A stretch of 64,000 nucleotides of DNA. Source: Methanolobus chelungpuianus. GTDB taxonomy: Archaea; Halobacteriota; Methanosarcinia; Methanosarcinales; Methanosarcinaceae. The stretch lies in assembly GCF_024500045.1 (NCBI RefSeq), contig NZ_JTEO01000002.1, forward strand, positions 434,001 through 498,000, written 5' to 3'. Of the stretch, positions 54,215 through 61,364 are shown piece after piece (positions within the stretch are counted from its first letter, which is position 1; each line of letters begins with the position of its first letter). Position numbers and translations under genes: made by a program. The notes under the pieces were generated by a model. The model was not told where the DNA came from and did no database searches. It saw only the letters and a list, made by a program, of their open reading frames with translations.

Positions 54215-57046
54215 ATGCTAGGAATGAACAACAAACTGAACAAAGAGATTGCCCATGTGCTTGAAAGCATTAACAATGGTCATCTTAATAGCAGGATAGA
54301 TCTCGATCTGTCCGGAAAGGACAAAGAACTTGCTGAGGCGTTCAATGCTTTTATTGACAATGCCATGCACTGGAGAGAAGCTGCAGATTCCCAGGCACTG
54401 GTCACCACTGAGGTCAGCAGATTAATGAGATGTGTCCAAGAAGGCCAGCTTGAGGCCAGGGTAGATGCTTCTAAGTTTGATGCAGAAGCAAAAGAACTGA
54501 TTAATGATGTGAATGGCCTGATGGATGCCATGGTGAAGCCATTTGTTGCTGCATCAAAGTTCGTAGAGAAGATATCCAAGGGAGACATCCCCCCGAAGAG
54601 CACAAAGGAATTCAAAGGCGCCTTCAACGATCTTAAGAACAATCTCAATACCTGCGTGGACGCCATTAATGCTCTTGTTGTTGACTCTGCAAGGCTTGCA
54701 GAAGCAACTGCCGCCGGCAAGGTCGATGTGCGTGTGGAAGCTTCCAAACACGGCGGTGATTTCAGGAAGATCATTGAGAGCATGAACAGCAACCTTGATG
54801 CAATATCAAAACCGCTCAACGAGAGCACATCCGTTCTTCTTAAGCTTGCAGTCAATGATTTCGAGAACGGTGTGACAGGTGAATATCCGGGTATCTTCAA
54901 GGACAATGCATACGCTGTCAATGAGGTCAGGAACAGGCTGCTCAACATCGAGCGTACCTTTGAGTACATGGCTGCGGGTAATTTCAGTGACCTTGAAAGG
55001 TACAGGAAGGTGGGCAAGCGCTCAGAGAACGACAAGCTCCTCCCGAACACTATAGCAGTGATGGAAACGGTCAAGGGCATGGCAGACGAGTTCATTGCAC
55101 TGGGTAAGGCTGCCGAAGAAGGCGATCTGGCACACAGGACCGATGCTTCCCAGTTCGAAGGTCTTTTCAAAGAGGCTGTCGTGACTGTCAATGAAGCATT
55201 TGATGCTGTGATCACACCTCTGAATCTCACTGCAGAGTATATTGACAGCATATCCCGGGGAGAGATCCCTGACAGGATCACGGATGACTACAAAGGCGAT
55301 TTCAACGTGATCAAGAACAACATAAACGCATGCATTGAAGGCCTTGAGGGGCTTCAGGAAAGCAATGGAGTGCTGCAGCTCATGGCGGATAACGACCATA
55401 CACGCAGGGTGGAAGGACAGTATCAGGGCATCTTTGCAGACGTGGGTACTGCCACCAACTCTATCCGTGACAGGATCCGAACGGTCATGTCGGTCAACAA
55501 GAAGATCGCTGTAGGCGACCTCAGCGATCTTGCGGGCCTTAAGAGGATAGGCAAGCGTTCGGAGAACGACGAGCTTATTCCCTGTTATATCACCATGATG
55601 AGCAATATTGAAGGGATCGTTGATGAGTTCATAAAGCTTGGCCATGCCAGTGAGGCTGGGAATCTCGATTACAGGGCTGACGGGTCTGCTTACCAGGGAG
55701 CTTTCCAGGAAGCTATCAACACTGTCAATGGGGCAATCGATGCGCTTGTCACCCCGCTCAACGAAGCTATCAGGATCGTAAATGAATATTCCGGAGGCAA
55801 TCTGGATGCAAGGGTAAGCTTTGAGACACAGGGTGATTTCAAGGTTTTCGCCAGCGCTCTTGATACGTTCGGTGAGAACCTCCAGGCAATAATAGAAGAT
55901 TCCAGCGAGGTGCTGGGAGCGATCTCAAACAACGATCTGACCCGTGCAGCTCAGGTGGAAGGTGTCGGTGAGTTCAAGTTGCTCACGGACGGTATCGAGA
56001 ACACAAGAAGGTCCCTGAACGATGTGGTTTCCATGGTGCAGGGCACCTCCAAGAATGTAGCTGCAACCGCAGAGGAAATGTCCGCATCCGTGGAAGAGCT
56101 GACCTCTTCGTCATACCAGATCGCAGACACGGTCTCAGAAATATCCAAGGGAGCACAGAACCAGGCATCCAAGACTGAAGAGGTTTCCCGTGCAATGGTA
56201 GATATGACCATGACAGTGCAGGAAGTAGCCACCAACTCACAGAAGGCGGCAGAGACCGCGAAGGAATCCAATGAACTTATCCACGAGCTGGGTGTGATCG
56301 CAAAAGACCTGTTGAAGAAGATGGAGGGAATCAAGGAAGCCTCTTCAGATTCTTCTGAGGTCATCATGGAGCTTGATGGCAAATCCAAGCAGATCGGCGA
56401 GATAGTCAGTCTTATTACAAGCATTGCCGACCAGACCAATCTGCTTGCGCTCAACGCAGCCATCGAGGCTGCAAGGGCTGGCGAGCATGGGCGTGGGTTT
56501 GCTGTGGTTGCCGACGAGGTGCGCAAGCTCGCTGAGGATTCAGGTAATGCAGCCAAGCAGATAGCTGGCCTTATACACCAGATCCAGGCAGGTACTGCGA
56601 ATGCGGTGACAACCATGCAGCAGGGTGCTGTCGAAGTCTCCAATGGTGCTGCGGCTCTCAACGAGGCTGCAAATGTGATCGAGAAGGTCGTCAAGGCCGG
56701 GGATACGATAGCTCACATGGTCCAGGACATAGCAGCGGCAGCCCAGGAGCAGTCTGCCTCGATTGAAGAGGTGACCTCCTCAGTGGAAGAGGTTTCTGCC
56801 ATATCCGAGGAGTCTGCAGCCGGTACCGAGGAAGCGTCGGCCGCCGTGCAGGAGCAGACAGCCACCATGCAGGAACTTTCAAGATCTGCAGAGGGCCTGG
56901 CACAGGTTGCAGGGGAAATGAAGGATGTGGTTGACAAGTTCCTTCTGGATGAGAACGCAGGCAGTGTCCAGGGACAGCAGCATGCCAATCCAAAGAACAG
57001 GGGAAGTCCCATTGCAGGTAAACGCAAGGGCCACGCCCTTCTATGA
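54215..57046 (+). CDS. Soluble methyl-accepting chemotaxis protein with tandem HAMP-like modules
   Basis: A 943-residue chemoreceptor with no signal peptide or membrane segment, so it is cytoplasmic. The N-terminal two thirds are repeated HAMP-like modules: a unit of about 180 residues recurs, seen in [13 protein letters not shown] (about residue 265) and [13 protein letters not shown] (about 445). The signalling domain follows, with the hairpin tip around [20 protein letters not shown] (about 756) and Gln/Glu methylation-type helices ending [20 protein letters not shown] precedes the ATG. CheW follows directly. No ligand or PAS domain is recognised, so the signal sensed is unknown. Confidence 0.92.
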
Positions 57047-57063
57047 TCATCAGGGGCATTAAT

Positions 57064-57555
57064 ATGGCTGATATGTCATTTGAAGGAAAAGGTAAAGCTG
57101 CCGACCTGCTCCAGCTCGTGGTGTTCGAGCTGGGCGGTGAGGAGTTCGGTGTAGAGATCATGAACGTGCAGGAGATCATCAGGATGCCTGAGATGACTCA
57201 GATCCCACAGTCCCCTGATTTTGTGGAGGGCGTGATAAACCTGAGAGGCAGGATCATTGTAGTAGTGAACCTGAGCAAACGTTTCAACCTGCAGTCTAGG
57301 GTAGCTGACGAGAACTCAAGGATAATAGTTGTGGAGGTAGGAAAAACTGTTGTCGGTATGATCGTGGACTCGGTCAATGAAGTGCTGCGGATCCCCAAAT
57401 CCGGTGTGGAACCCGCTCCTGAGCTCGTCATGTCTAAAGTCAGTAAGAACTACCTTAAAGGTGTCGGGAAGATCGACAAAAGACTCCTTATACTACTGGA
57501 CCTGGCCAGGGTCCTGACGCTTGAAGAGGTAGCTGAGATTTCCAATCTTGCCTGA
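57064..57555 (+). CDS. cheW: Chemotaxis adaptor CheW
   Basis: A 163-residue adaptor that links MCPs to the CheA kinase. The family pattern is clear: QLVVFELGGEEFGVEIMNVQ, RMPEMTQIPQSPDFVEGVIN, LRGRIIVVVNLSKRF and VGMIVDSVNEVLRIP. The ATG at 57064 has AGGGG upstream; an earlier in-frame start overlaps the MCP stop. CheA, CheY, CheB and CheD are not in the window, and the adjacent cheR is broken. Confidence 0.94.
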   Translation: MADMSFEGKGKAADLLQLVVFELGGEEFGVEIMNVQEIIRMPEMTQIPQSPDFVEGVINLRGRIIVVVNLSKRFNLQSRVADENSRIIVVEVGKTVVGMIVDSVNEVLRIPKSGVEPAPELVMSKVSKNYLKGVGKIDKRLLILLDLARVLTLEEVAEISNLA

Positions 57556-57680
57556 AAGGCAAGATACTTTTTCTATTGATATTAAGTCATGCACAGCAGG
57601 ATGCACATTTCCATGCTTATTGCTGAAGCTGCAACCTTTAAAGAGAGGTATTTACGGCTTTTACATATTTCTTCAGGTAG

Positions 57681-58280
57681 ATGCAGACTCCTGAAATGAT
57701 CCGGGACTCTGTGATCCCGAACCTGGGGACCCGCAGGTACATCCGCATGTGGGACGTCGGCTGCGCCATGGGGCGGGAACCTTATTCCATGGCAATAACG
57801 CTGCGGGAAAATAAGGGCATGATCTTCAGGAATATAAGGATCCGTGCAACAGATATCGGCAACAGCAACCCGCTCTCTGACATCATCGAGAGGGGAACAT
57901 GTCCTCTGGAAGAGGTACAAAGGATACCCGGGCCAATATTCGAGAAGTATTTTTCTCCTGCTCTGTGAACCGGCTATTTCACTATACCGGAGGAAATACG
58001 TAAAAGTGTCTCTTTCACAAAACCTGATCTTCTTAGCATGAAACCGCTAAGGTAAGACCTGAAGCTGATCCTGTGCAATAATGTACTTCTTCACTTCAAT
58101 CAAAAAGAACGCGTCAAGGTGATCGGGATGTTCCGTGATTTACTGGATGAAGGTTATTTTGCAACAGATCATACCCAGAAGCTGCCTGAGTACTGGAAGG
58201 CTATTTTCAACTGGTGGCAGCTAATGCACGGCTTTACAGGAAGATCAACATGTAATATCCTGTTGCTATTAATATTATGA
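57681..58280 (+). pseudogene. Broken CheR-type protein-glutamate methyltransferase (two in-frame stops)
   Basis: From the ATG at 57681 the frame reads RYIRMWDVGCAMGREPYSMA (SAM-binding motif) and IRATDIGNSNPLSDIIERG, as in CheR, then meets TGA at 57966. The same frame continues with GYFTIPEEIRKSVSF, a TAA at 58053-58055, then LILCNNVLLHFNQKERVKVI and GYFATDHTQKLPE, all clear CheR sequence, ending at 58280. The usual N-terminal helical domain is also missing. Two different stops and a short 5' end point to decay, not recoding. MCP adaptation would need another CheR. Confidence 0.82.
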
Positions 58281-58392
58281 GGATGTCATGAACATGTGAT
58301 ACGGATAAATTCCGGGGGTATGCATGCAATTCCTCATTTCTTTTTTTCATGGCAGTCCCTCTTCAGCGCCATGGAGGAAAATTTCATGTTCA

Positions 58393-58405
58393 TAATATAT
58401 AAATA
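58393..58405 (+). promoter_or_regulatory. TATA box for the actin-like/coiled-coil operon
   Basis: TAATATATAAATA is a strong TATA element. It predicts a start near 58424 and a leader of about 35 bases carrying GTGAGG ten bases before the GTG start. The rest of 58281-58458 shows no gene. Confidence 0.6.
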
Positions 58406-58458
58406 CTGATTTATCTCACATCTTCTGTTATCAATAAACAAAGTCGTGAGGCATTATC

Positions 58459-59559
58459 GTGGACACTGCTGAAAGTTTCCAAAATGAGAATGAAGCTACT
58501 GATTATCCTGCTGCGTCCGGAACAGACAGGGAAACGTCCTATCTCGGGATTGACCTGGGTACGTCGGTAATAACAATCTGCAACAATAAGGGGTCCACGT
58601 TCTCAGAGTACAGCCTGATTGCTCGTGATAATAATCCCGATTCAGAAAGAGATGATGAGGACAGGCTCTATGTTGGAAAGGCTGCACTCGAAAGAGCAGA
58701 TCTTGAGTTGAACTGGCCTGTAAAGGACCTTCTGTATAAAGGAGGGAACTGCGGGAACCTCAGGGCACTAATTGAACATTGTGTCCAGGCTGCAGGCATT
58801 ACTGCGGAACATGAGCACAGGTACGCTATGATAAGTGTTCCTCCGTGTGCTGATGCATCTTACAGGAGAGCGGTGGTGGATGCGGCAAGACCGCTTTTCA
58901 GAGGCCTGATGATTGCCAACGGGCCCTTCTGTGTTGCTTACGGGAATAAGAAAATCAACGGCTCAATTATCATCGATGCAGGCGCATGTAAAACCGATAT
59001 CTGTCGCATTCATGATTGTATGCCTGAAGACAGGGATTATCTGAATGTCCCGGTAGCCGGAGAGAATATCGATCAGGAACTTGTCGACCTGCTGGCTGAG
59101 AAATATGAAGGCTCAACAGTGACAAAAGAACTTGCGAGGACGTGGAAGGAGACCTACGGGTTCGTAGGGGACGCGGATGAAGAGTGCAGGGTCGAGCTGC
59201 CGATCGGTGATTCAACGGAGGATGTGATGATCAATGAGGAGCTCCGGCTTGCCTGCGAATCAATCATTCCTGATATCGTCTCAGGTATCCTGAGAATTGT
59301 ATCCGATGCAGAACCTCAGTTCCGTGAAGCATTAAGGAACAATATCTACCTTTGCGGCGGCAGCAGTAAGATAAGGAACATCAGCAGTTTCATTGAGAAC
59401 GAGTTAAGGGAAGTCGGTGGTGGCAAAGTCTTCCTCCTGGACAGGCCTGAATGTGCCGGAGCCTATGGAGCTTGCATGCTTGCAGAAAAAATGCCAGGGG
59501 AGTTCTGGGAAAAATTGAGTAACCTTGATAATGCAAAAAAATCTGATGTGATACTATGA
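58459..59559 (+). CDS. Actin-like ATPase of the bacterial MreB/MamK type
   Basis: A 366-residue actin/Hsp70-fold protein. Motifs in order: phosphate 1 YLGIDLGTSVITICNNKG (about residue 28), connect region MISVPPCADASYRRAVVDAA, phosphate 2 GSIIIDAGACKTDICRI (about 174) and adenosine motif NIYLCGGSSKIRNISSFIE. The opening strand resembles MamK/MreB more than crenactin or Hsp70, whose C-terminal substrate domain is absent. It starts at GTG with GTGAGG upstream. Its last four bases overlap the coiled-coil gene (ATGA), implying a joint function. Filament formation is inferred. Confidence 0.85.
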   Translation: MDTAESFQNENEATDYPAASGTDRETSYLGIDLGTSVITICNNKGSTFSEYSLIARDNNPDSERDDEDRLYVGKAALERADLELNWPVKDLLYKGGNCGNLRALIEHCVQAAGITAEHEHRYAMISVPPCADASYRRAVVDAARPLFRGLMIANGPFCVAYGNKKINGSIIIDAGACKTDICRIHDCMPEDRDYLNVPVAGENIDQELVDLLAEKYEGSTVTKELARTWKETYGFVGDADEECRVELPIGDSTEDVMINEELRLACESIIPDIVSGILRIVSDAEPQFREALRNNIYLCGGSSKIRNISSFIENELREVGGGKVFLLDRPECAGAYGACMLAEKMPGEFWEKLSNLDNAKKSDVIL

Positions 59560-61364
59560 GTTCATTAAGCTGGTCAAAAAATGGGAAGCAGGCTGCAAAA
59601 GGTCGCACGAGTCAGGATTTCACTCCCAATATATATCGTAAGCCTGCGATCAATGAAGATGACAAAGACAAAAAAGGTGATTCCCAGAATGTTGACGGTC
59701 CCGGTATATACAACCAGAGGACAATCGTAAAAACTCTGGAGACGGATCTGGGACAGTTACAGGAAAGATATGAGGCCCAACTCAAGGAGTACAGGGAAAA
59801 AGAGGCTGTACTCGCCGATGTTAAGGCAAGGTATGATTCCCAGATGGAAGAGTACGAAGAGAAACAGAAGCAACTTGACACACTAAAGGAGGATCTCTCC
59901 AGGCAGGAGGAGTTGCTTAACCGCAAATGCACTATCCTCAAGTCTGCAGTGCAGAAAGCTGAAGATACCATTCCGACGGAGCAGATCCGTGAACTTGAAG
60001 AGAAGCGCTCCGAGTTCGAGAAGAATAAAGCCGAACTCGAGCAGAGACTGGAAGAGTTCGAAAGGACTCAACAGGAGTACGAACAGCAGTTTACCCTGCT
60101 TGAGAGCAACAGGTCTGAACTTTCCGGCATGAGGGCCCAGTATGAAGAAGAGCTGCAGGATTATCTTGGCAGGAAGAAAGAGCTTGAGAAGAAGGCACAT
60201 TCTCTGGAGGAACAGCTTGCAGCAGGGAACGATGCTTCGCTGGGTATTGAAGGCCTGAACTATGGTACTGCCATAGATCTTGTAAAGTCAAAGTACTACA
60301 GTGAGCTGAAGGAACTAAATCGTAAGAAGGCAGACCTTGCAACCCTCAGGGAGGAACTGGAGAACGAGGAATCCCTGCTCAATGCCAAAAGTTCCAGCAT
60401 AGCAGAGATAAAGGCACAGATCGAGAGCGAATTCAACAGACTGATACCACAGACTTCCGAACTTGAAGCTGCAATGGCGGCTTATGATGAGAAGGTCCGC
60501 ATCCATGAGGAAAGGGAGCAAAGGCTTTCCCAGCTGACACGGAAATATGACCTCGACTATGCCACCTTCACCCAGAACCGGCAGGAGCTTGAGGAGTTGC
60601 TTGACCGGCAGGCAAAAGAAGAGCTTGACCTGGAGGAAAGGAAGATCGCAGCAAGCGAATCACGCAGGCAGCTGGAACTTGAGATAGAAGAGATCAATTC
60701 AAGGTCTGCCGAGTTCCGGGAAAAGGTTGCTGCCTTTGAGAGGAATACAGAGCTTTACCAGCATGATATTCTTGAATATGAGGAGAACCTGCGCATCTAT
60801 ACTGAGAATAATAACCTCTTACAGGAGTCTCTTTCTGTGTACGGGGAAGAGCTCAGGTCGTTTGAAGAAAGACGTGCCGAACTTGAAAGTCAGAAAATCT
60901 CCCTGTCAGGTGAAGAGGAATCCCTCCTGCAGAGAAAGTCCGATATAGACGACAGGCGCAGGGAACTCGAATCCGAGGAATCGATGATCGTTTCCTGGAG
61001 AGCTGAGGTCGAGTCAGAGAAAGCTTCCCTTAAGTCCGAACTGGAGAGCATCAAAACCAAACGCGAGGGTAATTCTAAGCTGGAGAGTGAACTGGAATCC
61101 GGATTCAGTGAACTGGAGTCCCGCCGCAGGGAGCTTGAAGCGCTTCTGGAAACAACTGAAAAGGAGATCGGGACACATATCACCCTTCATCGCCAGAACC
61201 TCGATATCCGCAAGGTCAACACCAAGCTTGAACAGCAGTCTGTCTACATAAAGAGTCTTGAAAAATCCATAAGTGAGATGCAGAGGGCTCTTGATGAGGC
61301 TACGTCGGATGCAAGGAAACACGAGATGTTCTCACATATCCTCAAAATGAACATGGAAATCTGA
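59556..61364 (+). CDS. Large coiled-coil protein coupled to the actin-like gene
   Basis: A 602-residue protein. The first 60 or so residues are polar and probably disordered (SSLSWSKNGKQAAKGRTSQD). The rest is almost unbroken coiled coil, rich in Glu, Arg, Leu and Ser (REKEAVLADVKARYDSQMEE, LEQRLEEFERTQQEYEQQF). There is no membrane segment, signal peptide or catalytic motif. The four-base overlap with the actin-like gene argues for equimolar translation and a shared structure, such as a filament partner or scaffold. No named family is recognised. Confidence 0.82.
   Translation: MSSLSWSKNGKQAAKGRTSQDFTPNIYRKPAINEDDKDKKGDSQNVDGPGIYNQRTIVKTLETDLGQLQERYEAQLKEYREKEAVLADVKARYDSQMEEYEEKQKQLDTLKEDLSRQEELLNRKCTILKSAVQKAEDTIPTEQIRELEEKRSEFEKNKAELEQRLEEFERTQQEYEQQFTLLESNRSELSGMRAQYEEELQDYLGRKKELEKKAHSLEEQLAAGNDASLGIEGLNYGTAIDLVKSKYYSELKELNRKKADLATLREELENEESLLNAKSSSIAEIKAQIESEFNRLIPQTSELEAAMAAYDEKVRIHEEREQRLSQLTRKYDLDYATFTQNRQELEELLDRQAKEELDLEERKIAASESRRQLELEIEEINSRSAEFREKVAAFERNTELYQHDILEYEENLRIYTENNNLLQESLSVYGEELRSFEERRAELESQKISLSGEEESLLQRKSDIDDRRRELESEESMIVSWRAEVESEKASLKSELESIKTKREGNSKLESELESGFSELESRRRELEALLETTEKEIGTHITLHRQNLDIRKVNTKLEQQSVYIKSLEKSISEMQRALDEATSDARKHEMFSHILKMNMEI

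Follow-up and report, generated by a model that had tools for sequence, protein, structure and literature searches.

A MamK-like actin and an adjacent coiled-coil partner form a two-gene module that recurs across three archaeal families

The window analysed here is a stretch of 64,000 nucleotides of the Methanolobus chelungpuianus contig NZ_JTEO01000002.1 (positions 434,001 to 498,000), in which an actin-like gene is directly followed, on the same strand, by the gene of a 602-residue coiled-coil protein (Table 1). As an earlier note made from the sequence alone had stated, the two open reading frames overlap by four bases, with a shared ATGA. The overlap itself is not general, the intergenic distance in relatives being mostly -4 to +29 nt. 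The co-occurrence of the two genes in relatives, on which the note had staked its reading, is complete: the actin was present in 54 of the 238 genomes of the class, and a coiled-coil partner was the next gene in all 54. These comprise 26 of the 27 Methanolobus genomes, three genomes from one more genus of the same family (f1, genus g4) and members of two other families, f2 (six genomes) and f5 (19 genomes). Sampling the phylum more widely, we found only weak actin matches elsewhere (about E 1e-11 to 1e-15). Contigs whose actins are 61–91% identical to that of the window are named Methanolobus, and dN/dS between sister genomes was 0.12 for the actin and 0.15 for the partner, indicating that both genes are under purifying selection. 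The pair is thus a real, conserved two-gene module of a MamK-like actin and a coiled-coil partner, which recurs across three archaeal families.

Table 1. Coordinates of the actin/coiled-coil pair, its motifs and its upstream neighbours in the window.
Feature	Position	Strand	Remarks
Poly-HAMP methyl-accepting chemotaxis protein (MCP; context)	54215..57046	+	PF18947 in five stretches; PF00015, E 1e-50
CheW (context)	57043..57555	+	PF01584, E 9e-42
CheR pseudogene	57657..58247	+	Three in-frame stops and a 3' frameshift; lies between CheW and the actin gene
Promoter region of the pair	58338..58415	+	GCCATRG box (GCCATA), then ATGTTCATAATATATAAATACTGATTTA element containing the TATA box; constant spacing
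MamK-like actin (ALF)	58459..59559	+	GTG start, 366 aa; first ~23 residues disordered, then actin fold
Degenerate connecting-1 motif MIANGPFCVAYGN	58912..58950	+	Gly155 replaces MamK Glu143; alignment with 5ljw and family alignment
Altered phosphate-2 motif SIIIDAGACKTDICRI	58963..59010	+	Asp173 (MamK D161) kept; MamK G165 to Cys177, T166 to Lys178
Coiled-coil partner	59556..61364	+	602 aa; disordered N-terminus; helices 65-137, 141-222, 236-399, 407-601
N-terminal peptide FTPNIYRKP of the partner	59619..59645	+	Methanolobus only; occupies the ArlD/E position of other families
Conserved C-terminal tail of the partner	61164..61358	+	About residues 537-601; only part common to all partners

The MreB/MamK-like actin fold claimed for the first gene product was borne out, with MamK (NF040964; PDB 5LJV, 5LJW and 5JYG) as the nearest of the actin families by profile, PDB sequence and predicted fold. 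The protein matched Pfam MreB_Mbl (E 1e-15) and, among the NCBIfam models, scored 231.5 bits against MamK, 110 against BeeR, 49 against MreB and 29 against salactin. Its closest solved relatives by PDB sequence are MamK structures (E 2.5e-42), and the AlphaFold model (pLDDT 85) retrieved MamK 5ljw/5ljv as the top Foldseek match (E 4e-32; TM, by target length, up to 0.91). The curated MamK cut-off of 400 bits was not reached, either by the window protein or by the best archaeal member tested (398.4 bits), the outgroup actins scoring 372–398 bits; nor did the window actin reach the curated cut-offs for MreB (48.7 of 293 bits for NF010539 and 38.3 of 366 bits for TIGR00904) or salactin (29.4 of 400 bits). 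A grouping with Hsp70/DnaK or the sugar kinases, which the note had regarded as fatal to its reading, was not seen, as no such family of Pfam or NCBIfam matched the protein within E 1. In a tree, the Methanolobus actins, on a long stem branch, joined those of the other f1 genus, then f2, then f5, an order consistent with vertical descent and many losses. The archaeal actins grouped apart from MamK, a deep placement that is unsafe because the deep branches are long and MamK, BeeR and MreB were represented by one sequence each. An origin as a plasmid-segregation actin was rejected, tblastn against plasmids returning only two remote MreB matches (~25% identity), and viral contigs gave no match to the actin. 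We also discarded a role in defence, since PADLOC had no match for the actin and only coiled-coil cross-matches of the partner to SMC-like proteins.

The note's statement that all nucleotide motifs are in place does not stand. In the alignment with 5LJW, MamK SEPF in the connecting-1 motif reads NGPF, so that Glu143 is replaced, and the phosphate-2 loop is altered from DIGAGTTD to DAGACKTD. The actins of f2 and f5 retain DIGAGTTD; at position 143 those of f5 have Glu and those of f2 Asp. In the family alignment nearly every Methanolobus actin shows changes in the phosphate-2 loop, and the catalytic Glu is missing from 10 of the 26, including all five of the window's clade. In other actins, mutations equivalent to E143 or D161 abolish ATPase activity and dynamics, and MamK D161A forms non-dynamic filaments (PMC5059902). 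Judging from these mutant effects and from the changes at Glu143 and in the phosphate-2 loop, ATP hydrolysis is probably impaired in the window actin. It may nevertheless polymerise, since Mad28 still does so despite its degenerate phosphate-2 site (PMC10653835). The family also suggests that repeated loss of the catalytic Glu is compatible with continued selection on the actin gene.

The second protein was claimed to be a nearly continuous coiled coil, and its AlphaFold model agrees, with 62 disordered residues followed by helix from residue 65 to 601; the hydrophobic (heptad) period is 3.50 residues and was stronger than in any of 500 shuffles. Its matches to SMC, Rad50 and TPR families were taken as generic coiled-coil similarity. 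Conservation lies at the two ends. When a profile was made from the C-terminal 118 residues of Methanolobus partners only, it retrieved those partners of other families whose C-terminus is intact and not cut off by a contig end (E 1e-22 to 2e-4), with matches ending at or near their C-termini, and no non-partner came close (best E 0.22 or weaker). This tail is a candidate actin-binding end. At the other end, every non-Methanolobus partner scanned (f1 g4, f2 and f5) carries a PF04659 (ArlD/E) domain, which was not detected in the window partner. The Methanolobus peptide FTPNIYRKP corresponds to F22 to P30 of the partner alignment, and all of its residues are invariant except T23. Between the ends, which are both kept, the coil may be nearly absent or reach about 1,800 aa, and whole partners range from about 200 aa (f5) to 1,940 aa (f2). 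Two conserved ends joined by a coil of free length suggest a tether. The 1,940-aa f2 partner (L064:3640-9462) contains internally repeated segments, and its relatives differ strongly in length.

The claimed promoter before the pair was found as a 27-bp TATA-containing element at 58385-58411, present in one copy in the window (0 expected) and conserved throughout the genus: preceded by the GCCATA box, it occurs ungapped in 25 of the 26 Methanolobus genomes, 31–129 nt before the called start codon. At 0–1 mismatches it was a single copy in each of the ten genomes tested, which ruled out a shared regulon, as none held a second close copy. From this conserved, once-per-genome element, it is probable that the pair has its own promoter, irrespective of the genes upstream. 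The bipartite element as a whole (~70 bp) is far better conserved across Methanolobus than its coding sequence (~37% amino acid identity).

MamK is a bacterial actin that arranges magnetosomes; with ATP it polymerises into double-stranded filaments, and its partners in magnetotactic bacteria include coiled-coil proteins. The window protein resembles it in its actin fold and retained Asp161, and the outgroup archaeal members also keep DIGAGTTD and, in f5, Glu143; however, the window protein is archaeal, lies below the MamK cut-off, has lost Glu143 and is paired with a different partner protein. No magnetosome genes (mam/mad) were among the annotated neighbours of the pair, which are MCP/CheW/CheR, polyphosphate or housekeeping genes instead. 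BeeR (NF053558; PDB 8R2N) shares the actin fold and was the second-best family match, but at 110 bits it falls far behind MamK and below its own cut-off of 530. We know of no dedicated coiled-coil partner of salactin, and to our knowledge the functions of archaeal actins are established in very few cases. Salactin (NF053533), an actin of haloarchaea, likewise has MamK as its nearest published relative and was placed next to it in the salactin paper, but is a protein different from the window actin (PMC10746226). Mad28, with its coiled-coil network of Mad20, Mad23, Mad25 and Mad26 (PMC12748827, PMC10653835), offers a parallel by description: an actin with degenerate phosphate-2 and connecting-1 sites that polymerises and places an organelle together with coiled-coil proteins. 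It belongs, however, to a magnetosome cluster of deep-branching magnetotactic bacteria and has lost the Asp and kept the Glu, the reverse of the window protein. Our searches of the open full-text literature turned up neither a MamK-like actin from a methanogen nor an actin/coiled-coil pair of this kind, and the note was fair in speaking of a new archaeal cytoskeletal module. The similarity also suggests that close MamK relatives are not confined to bacteria.

As to how the two proteins might work together, a MamK-type actin would form filaments and the dedicated rod-shaped partner would act as a tether, docking on the filament with its C-terminal tail, spanning a variable distance with its coiled coil and binding a cargo with its N-terminal end. 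Such a filament-plus-tether module, its cargo left unnamed, is a likely reading. In the ancestral form, which would have been kept in three other lineages, the cargo end is the ArlD/E domain of the archaellum switch proteins (ArlD/ArlE, also FlaD/E); what sets the partners apart from these is that the domain precedes a coiled coil and the common tail, in a protein paired with an actin. With such a cargo end, the likeliest original job would be to anchor or position part of a polar motility/chemosensory platform, and FlaD is located at cell poles (PMC6509185). In Methanolobus, the FTPNIYRKP peptide would have replaced the domain, and the actin, having lost parts of its hydrolysis site, would probably be a slow or static scaffold and not a dynamic filament. 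The motility/chemosensory platform is favoured as cargo by the ArlD/E end, by a modest association with CheW and by the MCP-CheW-CheR genes nearby in Methanolobus, and we put this more specific version at a little short of an even chance. The association comes from genus g16, where CheW was present in 17 of 19 actin-bearing and 6 of 12 actin-less genomes (Fisher p 0.03, uncorrected for kinship). Against this cargo speak G097, a complete genome that has the pair but lacks CheW, and the pair-bearing genomes of f1 g4, in none of which CheW is intact. In the f2 g12 genomes the partner is the sole ArlD/E protein, which rules out the archaellum itself as the cargo in these.

The genes around the pair suggest two other cargoes. 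The note had placed the pair just after an MCP and CheW and linked it to a chemosensory array. Both genes do lie upstream, but a CheR pseudogene absent from the note intervenes before the actin gene; the CheR orthologue in the sister genome G023 also appears damaged. That the pair positions the cytoplasmic array of the neighbouring MCP and CheW would fit the immediate adjacency of MCP-CheW-CheR in the window and close relatives, and also the nine Methanolobus genomes examined further upstream, in which MCP and CheR, mostly with CheW, lie within ~13 kb on the same strand, beyond a block of polyphosphate genes. Yet the adjacency is confined to a few Methanolobus genomes, those without this block: MCP-CheW-CheR abut the actin in the four that lack PPK1, the window genome included, so the neighbourhood in the window appears to be a deletion product. 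As, in addition, the CheR next to the actin is a pseudogene in the window, the pair's promoter is probably separate and G097 (about 100% complete) has the pair without any CheW, array positioning is unlikely. A direct chemosensory operon was dismissed, the adjacency not being general and CheR being dead; of the note's chemosensory link, what survives is the indirect tie to motility and chemosensing through the ArlD/E domain of partners in other families. The second cargo would be polyphosphate granules (acidocalcisome-like bodies), positioned or segregated by the pair as magnetosomes are by MamK. In 21 of the 26 Methanolobus genomes the polyphosphate block lies between MCP-CheW and the actin, with Ppx as the gene upstream of the actin and PPK1 also in the block; in most of these 21, CYTH-HD, PPK2, DUF4010, ferredoxin, CHAD, PPK1 and Ppx form a collinear series that the pair closes on its 3' side. 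CHAD domains bind polyphosphate (PMC6537752). A polyphosphate granule operon, which looked strong at first from these gene orders, was weakened by genomes that keep the pair without PPK1: the window genome, which is 99.99% complete, has lost the gene, and three relatives lack it too. PPK1 was also absent from all five actin-bearing f2 and f5 genomes tested, no polyphosphate genes were recognised near the pair outside Methanolobus, and the 160–330 nt between Ppx and actin hold the conserved promoter private to the pair, all of which makes granules an improbable cargo. The island itself (L047:484-10061 and its equivalents in most Methanolobus genomes) is a compact set of CYTH-HD, PPK2, ferredoxin, CHAD, PPK1 and Ppx that is missing wholly or partly from at least four genomes of the genus, while G026 and G021 each have two PPK1 genes.

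Two further explanations dispense with a cargo. The pair could be a general scaffold for cell shape or rigidity: an actin with long coiled coils resembles structural cytoskeletons, the phyletic spread is patchy and an altered ATPase site would suit a static structure. On the other hand, no conserved gene context points to envelope genes, the MreB-type scores are low and the ArlD/E end of the partner suggests a specific binding partner, so we regard such a scaffold as doubtful. Alternatively, the Methanolobus actin could be the declining remnant of a MamK-like ATPase whose function is being lost, as its long stem branch, altered phosphate-2 loop and missing catalytic Glu might indicate. This is highly improbable, given that dN/dS is ~0.1–0.2 in most of the pairs compared, that the reading frame is intact in the genomes examined and that the promoter and the ends of the partner are near-invariant. 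We keep to the reading of a filament with a tether. Its fullest version describes an undescribed class of archaeal cytoskeleton, in which a MamK-family actin and an obligate, length-variable tether, with a cargo end swapped between lineages (ArlD/E or a short peptide), would link a filament to the archaellum/chemotaxis pole, with an ATPase-poor static scaffold in Methanolobus; taken whole, it is conceivable but rather unlikely. Because the actin has a nameable partner, which offers a candidate docking tail and, at its cargo end, a domain pointing to the polar motility machinery, the placement of polar complexes in archaea can now be tested directly.

A 287-aa coiled-coil paralogue encoded in the window's own genome (G000, contig C5; L067:7612-8475) has the same C-terminal tail as the partner and is located away from the actin. 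Its relatives were present in 27 of 27 Methanolobus genomes, including G010, where the actin was not found; the tail may therefore have another role. The same genome encodes, on contig C4 (L154:3422-6220), a 932-aa proline-rich protein with a C-terminal ArlD/E domain, which is distinct from the 427-aa ArlD/E protein in L153 and has counterparts in nearly all Methanolobus genomes and in some other genera of the family.
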